Below are positions 15 to 39,124 of a DNA stretch of 45,739 nt, one piece after another (positions within the stretch are counted from its first letter, which is position 1; the number at the start of each line of letters is the position of its first letter). The notes beneath the pieces are model-generated. The model saw only the letters and a program-made list of their open reading frames with translations, was not told the DNA's origin and did not search any database. A program made the position numbers and the translations under genes. Source of the stretch: Bacteroidota bacterium (GTDB lineage Bacteria; Bacteroidota; Bacteroidia; Bacteroidales; VadinHA17); the NCBI GenBank assembly GCA_003250475.1, contig QKGI01000097.1, forward strand, positions 1 to 45,739, written 5' to 3'.

Positions 15-827
15 ATGATGAATAAGCTGAAATATTTCCTGAGCATAGCCCTGATCCTTCATTATTTTGTTGCTATTGAAGCTCAGTCCCTGGTGGAGAG
101 ACCTGAACCGCCTCGCCTGGTAAACGATTTTGCCGGTATCCTTTCATCTGGCGAGAAACAATCGCTTGAAAACAAACTTGTTGCATTCAACGATTCAACT
201 TCAAACCAGATAGCTGTTGTCATTGTCAGCGATCTCCAGGGGTATGACAGGTCGGAGTTTGCATATAAAGTGGCACATGAATGGGGTGTGGGGCAGAGTG
301 AATTCAACAACGGTCTGCTGGTGCTTGTTAAACCGAAGACAGCAGAGTCCGGTGGCCAGGTTTTCATTGCCACAGGATATGGGCTTGAGGGTGCCATACC
401 CGACATAGCCTGTGCCGATATTATAGACAGGGAGATGATCCCCAGGTTCCGTGAGAACGATTATTACGGCGGCCTTGATGCAGGTACGGATGTACTTATG
501 GCCCTGGCCGCCGGAGAGTACAGTTACAATGACTATGCCAAAAGACAATCATCCGGAGCTCTGCCCGGGGGGATAATTTTCATTATGATTGTGATCTTCA
601 TTGTCATAATATCTGCCGGCAACTCCAATAACAGGCATATTAAAAAGAACGGCTCTTCCAACCTGCCTCTGTGGCTGCTTTTAAGCATGATGGGCGGCGG
701 CCGTTCTCACAGTGGCAGCTGGGGAGGTTTTTCCGGCGGAGGAGGCTTCTCCGGAGGAGGTGGTGGCGGCTTCGGCGGCTTCGGCGGAGGAGGCTTCGGT
801 GGCGGCGGGGCAGGAGGGAGCTGGTAG
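15..827 (+). CDS. TPM domain protein (YgcG family) with glycine-rich tail
   Basis: This is a secreted or membrane-anchored TPM-domain protein of about 270 residues. The N-terminus is a hydrophobic signal peptide ending near the EAQ at about residue 24. The TPM fold covers roughly residues 35-160, with the family landmarks VNDFAGIL near its start and GYGLEGAIPD near its middle. A single transmembrane segment lies near residues 185-205, and the last 50 residues are almost entirely Gly, Ser and Phe. TPM proteins are known in envelope and photosystem-repair contexts, and in Bacteroidota they often sit next to lemA; any such partner would lie before this window. A GGGGA ribosome-binding sequence at 6-10 favours ATG at 15 or 18 over the TTG at 12. 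The biochemical role is not certain for this family. Confidence 0.9.
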   Translation: MMNKLKYFLSIALILHYFVAIEAQSLVERPEPPRLVNDFAGILSSGEKQSLENKLVAFNDSTSNQIAVVIVSDLQGYDRSEFAYKVAHEWGVGQSEFNNGLLVLVKPKTAESGGQVFIATGYGLEGAIPDIACADIIDREMIPRFRENDYYGGLDAGTDVLMALAAGEYSYNDYAKRQSSGALPGGIIFIMIVIFIVIISAGNSNNRHIKKNGSSNLPLWLLLSMMGGGRSHSGSWGGFSGGGGFSGGGGGGFGGFGGGGFGGGGAGGSW

Positions 828-831
828 AGGT

Positions 832-868
832 GTCTGAAGTCTGAAGGTCTGGGGTCTGAAGGTCTGTC
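832..868. repeat. Tandem GTCTGAAG-type repeat, copy 1
   Basis: Five imperfect head-to-tail units of 7-8 bp (GTCTGAA, GTCTGAAG, GTCTGGG, GTCTGAAG, GTCTG) begin a few bases after the stop codon of the TPM gene. A near-identical array in the same unit order and orientation lies at 38138-38185. It is noncoding and sits between convergent genes. Confidence 0.85.
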
Positions 869-885
869 GCCCCGCGGAGCGGGGC
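869..885. other. Short GC-rich hairpin between convergent genes
   Basis: A perfect 7-bp inverted repeat (GCCCCGC / GCGGGGC) with a 3-base loop lies between the two tandem-repeat blocks. It is placed where a terminator for the TPM gene would be, but no T-run follows on either strand, so intrinsic termination is doubtful. It may instead be part of the composite repeat element. Confidence 0.5.
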
Positions 886-891
886 TCCGTC

Positions 892-947
892 ATGCAGTCT
901 TGCGGTCTTGCAGTCGTGCGGTCATGCAGTCATGCAGTCATGCAGGA
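892..947. repeat. Tandem 8-bp ATGCAGTC repeat, seven units
   Basis: Seven consecutive 8-bp units occur, reading ATGCAGTC with A/T/G at the first base and A/G at the fifth; the last unit degenerates to ATGCAGGA. It follows the GTCTGAAG array directly, with only the short hairpin between. No spacers are present, so this is a microsatellite-like array and not CRISPR. Confidence 0.85.
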
Positions 948-1040: not shown

Positions 1041-2069
1041 TTACCTGCCCGAGGTATAATTTCTCCATTTATCAAGCACAGCCTCCATGTCAGGTGGAAG
1101 AGGAGACTCAAAGGAGAGTCTTTTGCCTGTTACCGGATGGTCAAAAGCGAGTGTCTGTGCATGGAGGGCCTGCCGTGGAAGAAGGCTGAAGCAGTTGTGT
1201 ATGAACTGCTGATACTTTGAGAAAGTAGTGCCCTTGAGGATACGATGTCCGCCGTATTCCTCGTCGTTGAAGAGCGGGTGTCCTTTCCATGCCATATGCA
1301 CCCTTATCTGGTGTGTGCGTCCGGTCTCCAGCCTGCACTCAATGAGTGAAACATAACTGAACCGTTCTATGATTTTATAATGTGTGACAGCATGCTTGCC
1401 CTGGCTGCCGTCAGGGAAGACCTGCATGATCTTCCTGTCACGTATGTTGCGCCCGACATGCCCGGTGATGGTCCCCTCATCCGGTTCAGGGGTGCCCCAG
1501 ACCAGCGCCAGGTAACGGCGTCCGGTGGTCCGGTTGAAGAACTGCCTTGCCAGCCTGTTATGGGCATATTCGTTCTTTGCAACAACGAGGAGTCCCGAGG
1601 TGTTCTTATCTATACGGTGCACCAGCCCCGGCCTCAGCTCCCCTGTCTGGAACAGCGGGATGTCCCTGAAGTGAAACATCAGTGCATTCATCAGGGTGCC
1701 AGAGTAGTTACCATAGGCAGGATGAACAACCATACCCGCCGCCTTGTCAACAACAATAAGATCGTCGTCCTCGTAAACCACTGTAAGCGGCAGATCCTGG
1801 GGGATAAGCTCTATCTCACGGGGAGGATTGGGAAGGAGGATCTGGATGACATCCAGCGGCTTGACACGATAGTTGGGTTTCACCGGGGTCTCATTGACAA
1901 GTATATTTCCGGCCTGGGCTGCTGCCTGTACCCGGGTACGCGATACATTCTCAATGCGTGCAGCCAGGTACTTGTCAATACGAAGCATCGACTGCCCCGG
2001 GTCTACCACGTAACGGTAATGCTCGTACAGCTCCTGCTCCTGGCTCCCCGACAGTTCCTCGTCAGTCAT
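1041..2069 (-). CDS. rluD: RluD-type 23S rRNA pseudouridine synthase
   Basis: The product converts uridines to pseudouridine in RNA; RluD acts on helix 69 of 23S rRNA. Of its 342 residues, roughly 28-90 form an S4 RNA-binding domain. The catalytic domain follows, with the signature HRIDKNTSGLLV, in which Asp154 is the predicted nucleophile, and a later RTHQIRVH motif. Length and domain order match the RluA/RluD family; assignment to RluD specifically, rather than another RluA paralogue, rests on the S4 domain. It is the last gene of an apparent operon with the T9SS cargo gene (9-bp gap) and the PASTA gene. The start ATG at 2069 is clear. Confidence 0.93.
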   Translation of the reverse strand: MTDEELSGSQEQELYEHYRYVVDPGQSMLRIDKYLAARIENVSRTRVQAAAQAGNILVNETPVKPNYRVKPLDVIQILLPNPPREIELIPQDLPLTVVYEDDDLIVVDKAAGMVVHPAYGNYSGTLMNALMFHFRDIPLFQTGELRPGLVHRIDKNTSGLLVVAKNEYAHNRLARQFFNRTTGRRYLALVWGTPEPDEGTITGHVGRNIRDRKIMQVFPDGSQGKHAVTHYKIIERFSYVSLIECRLETGRTHQIRVHMAWKGHPLFNDEEYGGHRILKGTTFSKYQQFIHNCFSLLPRQALHAQTLAFDHPVTGKRLSFESPLPPDMEAVLDKWRNYTSGR

Positions 2070-36481: not shown

Positions 36482-38077
36482 TCAGAATCCTTTCAGCTCT
36501 ATGAATACCGTCGGTACCAGGAGGAGAAAGCCAAGCAGGAAGAGTATAACGATAAATGGAAGCACCCACCTGAACCACTTCTCATAAGGTATCCTGGCGA
36601 CGCTGAGGACCCCGAGAAGCACCCCCGATGTGGGCGTTATCATATTAGTAAAACCGTCACCGAGCTGAAAAGCAACCACCGTTGCCTGCCGGGATATCCC
36701 TATGAGGTCTGAGAACTGTGACATCATGGGCATTGTCAGCGCTGCCTTTGCCGACCCTGAGGGCATGAACAGGTTTATGACTGTCTGTGTCACGTACATC
36801 ATGCTGACAGAGGCCAGCCGGCCGGCCCCGGAGATAGATCCCGAAAGCTTGTAAAGCAGCGTGTCTATAATATTTCCGTTTTGCAGAATGATTATGATCC
36901 CTCCCGCAAGCCCTACTATCAGTGCTGCCGATTGAATATCCCTTACCCCGTCGAGAAACAGCTTCGTGATCCTGTTGGCATCATAATTCATCGCAACACC
37001 TGTCGCCAGTCCCATGGCAAAGAAGAGGGTGGCAATCTCCATAATGTACCAGCCGTATCCCATGACTCCTGTTATCAGGAAGAGTATGGTAAAGAGCAGT
37101 AGTCCGATGACAAAGAAGTGGACCGATTTTCTCAGGGTGAGCCATCCCGTCAGGGCAAAGAGACCGGCAAGCACCGGAATGACAGGAAGGGTCAGGCTGC
37201 CCTCGCCGAAAGTGAGTGAGGTAACAGGATAAAAGACGGAGAAAACAATCATGACTGCCAGCAATATGAAATATATGACCCAGGCAGATACCGGTGTATG
37301 GTACCTGATCTCCGTCTGTGTGCCGGAGTGCAGTGTGCGCCAGTAATCATCATCATCCCTTACAGGTGAACGGTGGGGATTCTTCCTGATCTTACCGGCA
37401 TAACGGAGTATATAGGTAAATCCCACAACGTTGATCACCACCCACATGAATAACCTGTACTCCATCCCTGAAAAGAGAGGTATATCGGAGAGACCCTGAG
37501 CAATACCGACAGTGAAGGGGTTAAGGAACGCGCCTGCAAAGCCCAGTGCTGCCGCAACAAAACAAAGAGAGACCCCTACAATAGAATCATATCCCATTGA
37601 AACAGCAAGCGGCACGAAAATTATCGTAAAGGCAATGGTCTCCTCGCTCATTCCGAAGACTGCCCCGAAGAAGCTGAACATTATCATAATAAGGATGAAG
37701 ATGAGATTGTCCGCGCCAAGCCTTTTCACGAACCCTCTGCTGCTCATACGGCCGGTAAGGCGAAGCACCGATCCTATGGCCACGTCTATGGCTTTGCTCT
37801 CATTCATTATCCAGAATGCTCCTCCGATTATCAGGATGAAGACAATAATGTCGGCCTTGTCGACAAATCCGTCAAACAGTGCGGAGAACACCTGCCATGT
37901 CTGCGGATGCTTCTCAGTATAGTGAAATGAACCGGGGATAACTACACTACGGTCAATTCCGTTAACTGTTACCGACTGCCTGTCGAAGGTGCCTCCGGGG
38001 ACCAGCCATGTAAGCACTGCACAAAGTACTACTATGCTGAAGACAATTACATAAGTGTGCGGGATCTTTTTAAACAT
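36482..38077 (-). CDS. YfcC family inner-membrane transporter
   Basis: From ATG 38077, a 531-residue polytopic membrane protein with about 12-14 hydrophobic helices. It matches the YfcC/DcuC-like family: the N-terminal PHTYVIVFSIVVLCAVLTWL, the conserved LVPGGTFDR, a central FGAVFGMSEETIAF and a late MPSGSAKAALTMP. Relatives are annotated as C4-dicarboxylate or basic amino-acid carriers, but substrates are mostly unproven. A TTG start 21 bases upstream is possible; the ATG fits other members better. The gene is likely monocistronic, with a tandem repeat just upstream of its promoter region. Confidence 0.9.
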   Translation of the reverse strand: MFKKIPHTYVIVFSIVVLCAVLTWLVPGGTFDRQSVTVNGIDRSVVIPGSFHYTEKHPQTWQVFSALFDGFVDKADIIVFILIIGGAFWIMNESKAIDVAIGSVLRLTGRMSSRGFVKRLGADNLIFILIMIMFSFFGAVFGMSEETIAFTIIFVPLAVSMGYDSIVGVSLCFVAAALGFAGAFLNPFTVGIAQGLSDIPLFSGMEYRLFMWVVINVVGFTYILRYAGKIRKNPHRSPVRDDDDYWRTLHSGTQTEIRYHTPVSAWVIYFILLAVMIVFSVFYPVTSLTFGEGSLTLPVIPVLAGLFALTGWLTLRKSVHFFVIGLLLFTILFLITGVMGYGWYIMEIATLFFAMGLATGVAMNYDANRITKLFLDGVRDIQSAALIVGLAGGIIIILQNGNIIDTLLYKLSGSISGAGRLASVSMMYVTQTVINLFMPSGSAKAALTMPMMSQFSDLIGISRQATVVAFQLGDGFTNMITPTSGVLLGVLSVARIPYEKWFRWVLPFIVILFLLGFLLLVPTVFIELKGF

Positions 38078-38137
38078 ACCGGGCCTTTTGCCCTGCAAAA
38101 TAGTGATTAGTCATGGAATTTCAAGCAGGGGAAACAG

Positions 38138-38185
38138 GTCTGAAGTCTGAAGGTCTGAGGTCTGAAGGTCTGAGGTCTGAAGGTC
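38138..38185. repeat. Tandem GTCTGAAG-type repeat, copy 2
   Basis: Seven head-to-tail units alternate 8 bp (GTCTGAAG) and 7 bp (GTCTGAG), giving a 15-bp higher-order period; the first unit is GTCTGAA and the last is cut to GTC. The first 35 or so bases match copy 1 at 832-868 with about one change, in the same orientation. It lies between crtB (ends 38198) and the start of the YfcC gene. Confidence 0.88.
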
Positions 38186-38197
38186 GTGACGGTCTTT

Positions 38198-39124
38198 TTA
38201 TGGTTGTCTCATCAGGACACCGAGAACGCGCTCCCTGGTTTCCGCAGGGGTGGGATTTAACTCTTCGGTTGCAAATGTCCCGCGTTCGGGATCAATACGC
38301 TCGAAAACCATCATATATAGTTCGAAGATAATCTCCAGGCTCACCCTGTATCTCGGTTCCATCAGCGGGCATACCTTCTTCATGACTGAGAGTGTCTGCC
38401 TGCGGTAGCTGTCTGAGATATCATAATATTCGCGCATCATTGTGCGGAACCCTGCAGTCAGCCGTTCACCATGCGCCATACCTTTAAGCTCTGAGCGGGT
38501 AATGTTATGCTTAGCCATGATGTCATCGGCAAAATAGCTGAGATTATTGATCTGGTCTTTGCGGAAATCGCGTATGATATGGACGAAATAACTGAACATG
38601 GCACATGGTTCGGCAGTAAGCCTCACGTCAAATGGAGGATCATAATATTTACCGTCTCTCTCCTGCAGTCCGGCCAGGTGAACAAATATCGATGCAGGTG
38701 ATACGGATGCCCCTCCGGAGTACCGGATGAAGTCAGACAGTGAAGCGAACCCATCGTGGGTTATATCATACATCATTGATTCGGCAAAAGCCTCAAGAGC
38801 CCATAACGGTATCCTGAATCGTTCCACCGTGTAGCCCAGTTCATTATTGAAAGGGGTGGTTTTGAGGCCGGTACTTATCATACCCAGCCAGCTGTTTACA
38901 TCGGAAGTAAATCGTTGCTTTACATCCTCGTTGATACCCTGGTTGGCAGCCTTGTGATCATCAATCAGATCATCCAGCGCCCTCATGAACCGGTAGCATG
39001 TGCGTGCAGCACCATAGCGCTCATTGTCCCAGAAGTTGGCTGCTATAAGTATGTTAGGATGGTCAATGATCTTTTCAAAGTCGATTGACTCAAAGACAGC
39101 CATGAATTGGTCTTTCGTTCTCAT
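38198..39124 (-). CDS. crtB: Phytoene synthase (squalene/phytoene synthase family)
   Basis: Joins two geranylgeranyl diphosphates to phytoene, the first step of carotenoid synthesis. The 308-residue protein has the two metal-binding Asp-rich motifs of the family: DDLIDD at residues 51-56 and DFRKD at 186-190, spaced as in phytoene and squalene synthases. The paired crtI 12 bp upstream on the same strand supports phytoene rather than squalene as the product. A squalene or C30 carotenoid activity cannot be ruled out from sequence alone. Confidence 0.88.
   Translation of the reverse strand: MRTKDQFMAVFESIDFEKIIDHPNILIAANFWDNERYGAARTCYRFMRALDDLIDDHKAANQGINEDVKQRFTSDVNSWLGMISTGLKTTPFNNELGYTVERFRIPLWALEAFAESMMYDITHDGFASLSDFIRYSGGASVSPASIFVHLAGLQERDGKYYDPPFDVRLTAEPCAMFSYFVHIIRDFRKDQINNLSYFADDIMAKHNITRSELKGMAHGERLTAGFRTMMREYYDISDSYRRQTLSVMKKVCPLMEPRYRVSLEIIFELYMMVFERIDPERGTFATEELNPTPAETRERVLGVLMRQP

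Follow-up and report, generated by a model that had tools for sequence, protein, structure and literature searches.

Why does an array of 7-8-bp units recur, almost letter for letter and in the same orientation, between two unrelated pairs of genes 37 kb apart on one bacterial contig, and what kind of element could have left it there? Dispersed heptamer repeats have been described in bacteria for decades, and we know of no accepted origin for them. The two arrays lie in a stretch of 45,739 nucleotides (the window), contig QKGI01000097.1 of a Bacteroidota bacterium, whose own draft genome (3.47 Mb in 168 contigs) we call G000. A sequence-only reading of the window had pointed out the pair and supposed a mobile or gene-conversion-spread intergenic element. 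We named the units A, for GTCTGAAG and its relatives, and B, for GTCNTGCR, and predicted genes in the window and in all other stretches with a simple purpose-made script. The features on which the argument draws are as follows.

15..827, plus strand: gene for a TPM-domain protein (PF04536), upstream neighbour of site 1 (gene call, Pfam)
832..866, plus strand: A array of site 1, GTCTGAAG/GTCTGGG units (Tandem Repeats Finder, TRF, score 49; sequence)
867..888, plus strand: GC-rich hairpin module joining the A and B arrays (stem 869-875/879-885, loop 876-878)
889..945, plus strand: B array of GTC[ATG]TGC[AG] units, consensus GTCATGCA, 7.1 copies (TRF)
1041..2069, minus strand: gene for an RluD-type pseudouridine synthase, convergent neighbour of site 1 (Pfam)
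36482..38077, minus strand: gene for a DcuC-type carrier (PF03606), downstream neighbour of site 2 (gene call, Pfam)
38136..38195, plus strand: A array of site 2, 3.9 copies of a GTCTGAAG/GTCTGAG 15-mer (TRF score 95)
38198..39103, minus strand: squalene/phytoene synthase family gene (PF00494, SQS_PSY), whose stop abuts site 2 (gene call, Pfam)

Site 1 has its first A unit 4 nt past the TAG with which the TPM-domain gene ends. The array of site 2 adjoins the SQS_PSY stop and is oriented opposite to both of its neighbours, which are minus-strand genes. At both sites the arrays run, as chains of GTC units, on a single strand. The near-identity of the two sites was borne out, with 34 of 35 bases matching between 832-866 and 38138-38172 and with equal order and strand, as was the statement that chance cannot explain it: a chain of four GTC units at 7-9 bp spacing arose in 1 of 1160 gaps after simple base shuffles. 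The B array at 889-945 and the hairpin at 867-888 are additions to what that reading had described. No insertion sequence was seen beside the two sites, and the window contained no match to an Rfam family at gathering thresholds and no tRNA. A terminator at site 1 was considered and rejected, the one stem (975-987) lying outside the arrays. The TPM-domain protein itself ends in a glycine-rich tail encoded by repeats at 723-817, directly before site 1.

Searching the whole of G000 revealed many more copies. The A-pair pattern, GTCTGAAGN{0,10}GTCTGAAG, gave 107 forward and 75 reverse matches (182 altogether) against 2 and 1 for a reversed control, a stricter A pattern gave 71 against 0, and the B pattern gave 170 against 0; matches overlap inside an array, so that these counts are not numbers of sites. 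Placement was analysed in the window and 59 further stretches (262 kb), picked for holding A matches, in which the GTC chains comprised 75 of A type, 29 of B type and 13 others. The 58 A-bearing gaps fell into 57 groups by flank similarity, and the TPM, RluD, DcuC and SQS_PSY genes are ordinary, in agreement with the earlier description of the neighbours as unrelated; the arrays are also mostly intergenic, as it had supposed, with 6 of the 75 A arrays sharing over 10 bp with a predicted gene. That reading would have been undone by only two copies genome-wide, which the 182 matches and 58 gaps dispose of, and gene conversion between the two loci is not needed as an explanation. The two sites are ordinary members of large repeat families and no special pair.

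The A arrays are not placed evenly among gaps. Eighteen of the 58 A-bearing gaps were convergent, 16 codirectional with the array on the opposite strand, 12 codirectional with it on the same strand and 4 divergent, and 8 lay at stretch edges. Relative to 174 comparison gaps of at least 40 bp from the window and 20 congener stretches, A arrays under-used divergent gaps (4 of 50 versus 48 of 174) and over-used convergent ones (18 of 50 versus 32 of 174), by Fisher statistics that ignore relatedness. Arrays with a same-strand gene upstream often started within a few bases of its stop, and five of them included the stop TGA in the first unit. At least two B units were present in 29 of the 58 A-bearing gaps but in only 7 of 68 other gaps, on A's strand in 24 of those 29. 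GTC chains on both strands were found in only 8 of the 58, neither window site among them. A text pattern detected hairpin-like modules such as that at 867-888 in 19 of the 58, and array length differed between sites and between species. The arrays are repeatedly accompanied by longer palindromic modules (for example around ATCCCGACATACCATGTCGGGA, AAATGACCCACCGGGTCATTT and TCCGCCAGCTGGCGGA, and variants of these), which often join them at GTC words, as in stretches L016, L019, L022, L027, L040, L077, L078, L083, L086, L091 and L094 of the same genome. On contigs C8, C11, C14, C32, C48, C60, C72, C75, C100 and C134 of G000, A arrays lie at most about 260 bp from a contig end, which suggests that the assembly tends to break there and may lack complete elements.

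Relatives of the window hold other units in the same slots. We searched 60 genomes, the window's own included, for the A pattern: 20 of the 22 from the genus had it, as did 1 of the other 38, with 182 matches in G000, 168 in G011, 132 in G020 and 0-36 in the remaining congeners. Closest to the RluD protein among named relatives (L257-L272; 78-91% identity) are proteins from metagenome-assembled genomes labelled Bacteroidales or Bacteroidetes, one of them labelled Rikenella microfusus. We compared, in common orientation, 32 of 80 fetched loci at the convergent TPM/RluD gap that is the slot of site 1. It is near-empty in L257, L273, L277 and L278, where the stops are 0-3 bp apart, has remnants of 14-15 bp in L259 and L271, and carries arrays of other units in, for example, L258, L264, L270, L275, L279, L281, L288 and L291. 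In L261, L262, L263, L265, L267, L269 and L335 it measures 441-543 bp, and inverted, mostly GCGATTT-like arrays there flank a small gene, S23; the remaining loci compared are cut by contig ends or have other sequence. The slot of site 2 likewise holds other units in several congeners, by plus-strand matches. The remnants in L259 (14 bp) and L271 (15 bp) resemble GCGATTT arms and seem to be what is left of a lost S23 element. In L262, L264 and L265 the array enters the 3' end of the RluD gene and seems to provide its stop (GGGATTTGA or GGAATTTGA), in place of endings such as AGAGACTAG that most relatives have; arrays can thus replace the last codons of a gene. Single gaps in L355 (G011), L347 (G006) and L353 (G020) contain at least two adjacent unit families (GGCAGTA, ATCGCAA, AAGAATT, CTTCAGAC), as whole arrays or as bits.

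The small gene was identified as S23 from the four copies scanned, which matched PF05635 (23S_rRNA_IVP) and TIGR02436 (four helix bundle protein); solved structures of relatives are 2rld and 2gsc (XCC0516). One of the four also weakly matched the Avd model, at 27.8 bits against a cut-off of 80. We take S23 to resemble the Avd protein of diversity-generating retroelements. S23 gave 42 matches in 16 of 22 congeners; more widely, 85 of 119 genomes searched in the order carried it, as did 116 of 148 in the phylum and none of 14 named control genomes. G000 itself has a single S23 match, on contig C42, with AAGGTTA arms that are unrelated to the A unit. In three small groups S23 is under purifying selection: dN/dS was 0.07-0.29 in the six pairs with a finite dS above 0.1 and 0.75 in one very close pair (dS 0.04), other pairs being saturated. 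Copies broken by in-frame stops (L203 on contig C1 of G021, L218, L224, L234 and L241) are as expected for elements decaying in place.

The layout seen at the slot of site 1 is common to S23 loci: an array past the upstream stop, the S23 frame, then the reverse-complement array before the next gene, with a unit that varies between elements. We measured this by aligning 160 nt upstream of S23 locally to the reverse complement of 160 nt downstream; the threshold score for arms, at least 18, and that for arm sharing, 20, were preset in the scripts and are arbitrary. Inverted arms reached the threshold for 22 of 30 S23 genes in the genus and 17 of 30 in the order. Mismatched pairs did so in 6 of 120 and 4 of 120 cases, respectively, and a sample of 250 out of 289 control genes contained one such case. 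In a larger set the score was reached by 76 of 113 S23 ORFs (those tested among 117) and by 11 of 565 mismatched pairs; removing two duplicates left 74 of 111 distinct ORFs with arms and 37 below threshold, the broken gene L203 entering as two ORFs. A further set from the phylum gave 12 of 30 against 3 of 150 mismatched pairs, with 18 below threshold, and some loci, such as L215 and L227, have no visible arms. The loci behind these figures are best-scoring matches, 30 per search, together with places from multi-copy genomes and not a random draw, the genomes are mostly draft assemblies, and the S23 and array statistics ignore shared ancestry. Tandem arrays were detected by TRF on both sides of 79 of the 111 S23 ORFs but of only 5 of 289 control genes. 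Period 7 was commonest, both in S23 arrays (43 of 95 upstream, 37 of 91 downstream) and beside control genes (31 of 80 arrays), so the period alone is not special to S23. For two elements the predicted RNA fold pairs the arms, with z of -6.1 and -5.6.

S23 elements also stand in a regular relation to the gene before them. Of 56 cases that could be measured, 39 had the left array starting between -8 and +10 nt from the upstream stop, and S23 was on its upstream neighbour's strand in 50 of 55 loci, compared with 199 of 287 controls (5 of 60 loci had no neighbour in the stretch). TAG stops were unusually frequent in the genes upstream of S23 elements in the genus (15 of 27 versus 67 of 307 control genes) and were counted in 9 of 23 for the order set, a count for S23 loci alone; arm units often contain TAG, so that the arm may supply the upstream gene's stop. 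Related S23 genes, moreover, often share their arm unit at different sites. At non-homologous host sites, and excluding the 20 nt next to the ORF, the unit was common to 7 of 15 S23 pairs with at least 65% protein identity, to 17 of 295 at 45-65% and to 87 of 5708 below 45%. Pairs at homologous host sites were set aside because the compared windows include host sequence, and we use the stricter 7 of 15 in preference to the 12 of 16 obtained at the same identity with duplicates and the 20 nt kept.

One such arm unit leads back to the window. Identity is 81-82% between the S23 genes of L206, in G001, and of L340, present in two copies in G017. They have different host flanks, and the arms of both are built from GTC[CT]TGCG, the unit of the B array at 889-945. 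On unit identity, the B array thus appears to be linked directly to S23 elements, in contrast to the earlier view that the repeat matches no family that could be named; the architecture, too, matches that of S23 intervening-sequence elements. Fourteen of 22 congeners have B arrays, some of them with no matching S23 seen. The A unit is tied to S23 by its GTC-N5 build, its placement and the gaps it has in common with B, and both G006 and G020 contain inverted A pairs without an ORF; on these grounds GTCTGAAG, besides the B unit, would belong to an S23-type element. None of the 117 S23 ORFs collected with flanks had GTCTGAAG arms, and tblastn found no S23 relic in the 60 A-bearing stretches, save the S23 on C42. 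At the two window sites themselves no S23 ORF or relic was found and there are no complementary terminal arms that could form a stem, and both sites lie between protein genes, not inside an rRNA gene.

The dispersal of the arrays, their placement, the inverted arms and the unit common to related S23 genes at different sites are consistent with a single history, and we consider it probable that the window arrays are solo or ORF-less remains of S23-element arms. In a complete element, inverted arrays of a single 7-8-bp unit would enclose a short S23 gene, and the whole would insert at a gene end, directly past the host stop and usually in the host gene's direction, a position from which it could be expressed by read-through. 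The host transcript would carry the element, its arms pairing as a long stem whose loop contains the S23 frame, and might be processed by RNase III as 23S rRNA intervening sequences are. Slippage would expand, contract and homogenize the units, a turnover fast enough to give each lineage its own unit. Elements and arms would spread to other gene ends and survive mainly where they are harmless, past stops and rarely in divergent promoter gaps, and elements that lost the S23 gene would leave dispersed arrays behind. The array arms also appear to multiply independently of any S23 that has their unit. Against this history stand the single S23 match of G000 beside 58 A-bearing gaps, the failure to see an S23 with A arms or further S23 relics, the few A-bearing gaps with chains on both strands, the S23 ORFs whose arms score below threshold and the low arm sharing at 45-65% identity. 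No transposase and, in an unsystematic look, no target-site duplication was identified for S23 elements.

The contrast in G000 between one S23 match and 58 A-bearing gaps could mean that the arrays came first, as a genome-specific repeat spreading by its own means (template switching, ectopic repair), and that S23 settles in or between them. That no S23 with A arms was seen fits this order of events, as do the several unit families piled up in single gaps of L355, L347 and L353. However, S23 arms are matched inverted pairs within the element (74 of 111), and related S23 genes at unrelated sites have a unit in common (7 of 15 versus 87 of 5708), as if gene and arms travel together; we therefore regard an origin of the arrays before S23 as unlikely. 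Ordinary simple-sequence expansion, in which each array would have grown neutrally by local slippage, fits a period of 7-8 and length variation, and heptamers make up most long simple sequence repeats in most genomes (Mrazek et al. 2007, via PMC4679880). Yet local growth would yield a different unit at each site, whereas one unit fills 58 gaps with different flanks and the same slots in congeners hold other units, which leaves this explanation very unlikely.

Two further explanations look to the hairpins and to the stop codons. If REP/RAYT-type or other transposase-driven palindromic elements were the mobile part, the arrays would be decorations of GC hairpins, some of which have a CGTC end and which the text pattern places in 19 of the 58 gaps; CGTC-tagged REPs are known in Bacteroidetes (PMC3733652), and PF01797 occurs in 8 of 22 congeners, with five copies in G017. 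But this Y1 transposase was not found in G000, G011 or G020, the genomes richest in A arrays, and by the same pattern 39 of the 58 A gaps have no hairpin, so that we give such elements only a slight chance. The arrays might alternatively be a 3'-end regulatory motif, binding a protein or regulating mRNA ends and kept by selection at chosen genes, given that they hug stop codons and avoid divergent gaps (4 of 50 versus 48 of 174) and that heptamers of Xanthomonas and Nostoc are placed likewise (PMC4692102). Purifying selection against insertions would give this placement too, however, and the orthologous slots of congeners hold different units or none, while both orientations occur in codirectional gaps (12 same, 16 opposite); of the readings considered here we find this the least probable. 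A reverse transcriptase acting in trans was rejected, PF00078 being found in only 4 of 22 congeners and not in G000, G017 or G020, and a diversity-generating retroelement was discarded on the same domain in G000. Phage origin was rejected as well: the 23-base A pattern had no exact match in viral contigs, relatives of the L206 S23 were not found there, and phage records gave one weak match.

The derivation of the window arrays from S23-element arms finds its closest parallel in the 23S rRNA intervening sequence of Coxiella burnetii, described as 428 nt with a 28-bp stem of inverted ends, excision by RNase III and an S23 ORF, before which stand two or three tandem heptamers (GACAGAT) and a degenerate one, variable between strains (PMC4990558). 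As in that account, the elements here have an S23-family ORF inside complementary, stem-forming arms and would be carried by the host transcript; unlike it, they lie between protein genes past stops, their arms are mostly tandem units and they have many copies, and the window sites are without the ORF. The heptamers GGGAATC of Xanthomonas and GGGGA(C/T)T of Nostoc are reported to lie near or overlapping stops, to be under-represented between divergent ORFs, to form 70 and 75 inverted pairs in Xanthomonas and to be generally without mobile-element association (PMC4692102). They resemble the window arrays in period 7 and dispersal, but their units differ, and neither 'S23' nor 'four helix' occurs in the main text of that article. 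The TAACTGA repeats of Beggiatoaceae are, by the published description, also dispersed intergenic heptamer arrays, but mostly just before start codons (PMC4679880), whereas the window arrays are past stops; the text of that article likewise has no match to either term. CGTC and GTAG REP elements are described as dispersed short palindromes, the CGTC type with 8-9 bp stems and no known transposase (PMC3733652), and thus as single palindromes as opposed to tandem 7-8-bp arrays. The BrickBuilt MITE of Porphyromonas gingivalis, with a 23-bp unit, a leader and a tail and 19 copies in one strain, is an intergenic tandem array in Bacteroidales, as here, and its abstract does not mention S23 (PMC4596501). 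S23 proteins themselves are stated to have no known function (PMC4990558). Among the entries searched, all of them open-licence papers, none tied flanking tandem arrays to S23 genes lying outside rRNA, which is weak evidence of novelty.

The tie between S23 and repeats makes both testable, each S23 gene predicting its own unit and each orphan repeat family predicting a lost or distant S23 element, and a class of short repeats in bacteria may owe its origin to S23 elements. The STRR sequences of heterocystous cyanobacteria are short tandem heptamers, largely intergenic, and are known as repeats only. Long simple sequence repeats are described in the same terms (via PMC4679880), and the window arrays, being dispersed intergenic tandem arrays of 7-8-bp units, are of this kind. 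It is conceivable, and we put it forward tentatively as a generalization that may well not hold, that arms of one mobile S23-element superfamily make up a large part of the heptamer-type arrays between bacterial genes, among them cyanobacterial STRRs and other long simple sequence repeats. Members of this superfamily would be intervening sequences that departed from the ribosome and ride host mRNAs directly past stops; they would encode nothing but an Avd-like four-helix bundle and would spread with neither a recognisable transposase nor a resident reverse transcriptase.

Among plasmid S23 loci from cyanobacteria, Riemerella and Gemmatirosa, counted for S23 loci alone, 8 of 14 scored at least 18 and 6 of 14 fell below, one of them at 17, with arm units such as GGGAGTA and GGGAACA. 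Several cyanobacterial plasmids carry S23 genes with inverted heptamer arms, and a Pseudanabaena plasmid, with an arm score of 7 at a cas locus, has long arrays on both sides of S23 that run in the same direction and are not inverted. On plasmid pNe_5 of Nostoc edaphicum (L399), an S23 element with GGGAGTA arms stands between two ribonucleotide reductase genes. S23 genes have been reported inside CRISPR-cas loci (PMC3936711), where they may be explained as insertions with repeat arms. In the plasmids of Anabaena sp. 90 (L401), Pseudanabaena galeata (L403) and Picosynechococcus PCC 7003 (L406), S23 lies in a cas locus with repeats around it, with arm scores of 27, 7 and 17, respectively, in the cas6/cas4 interval in two plasmids or in the cas10/Cmr3 interval.
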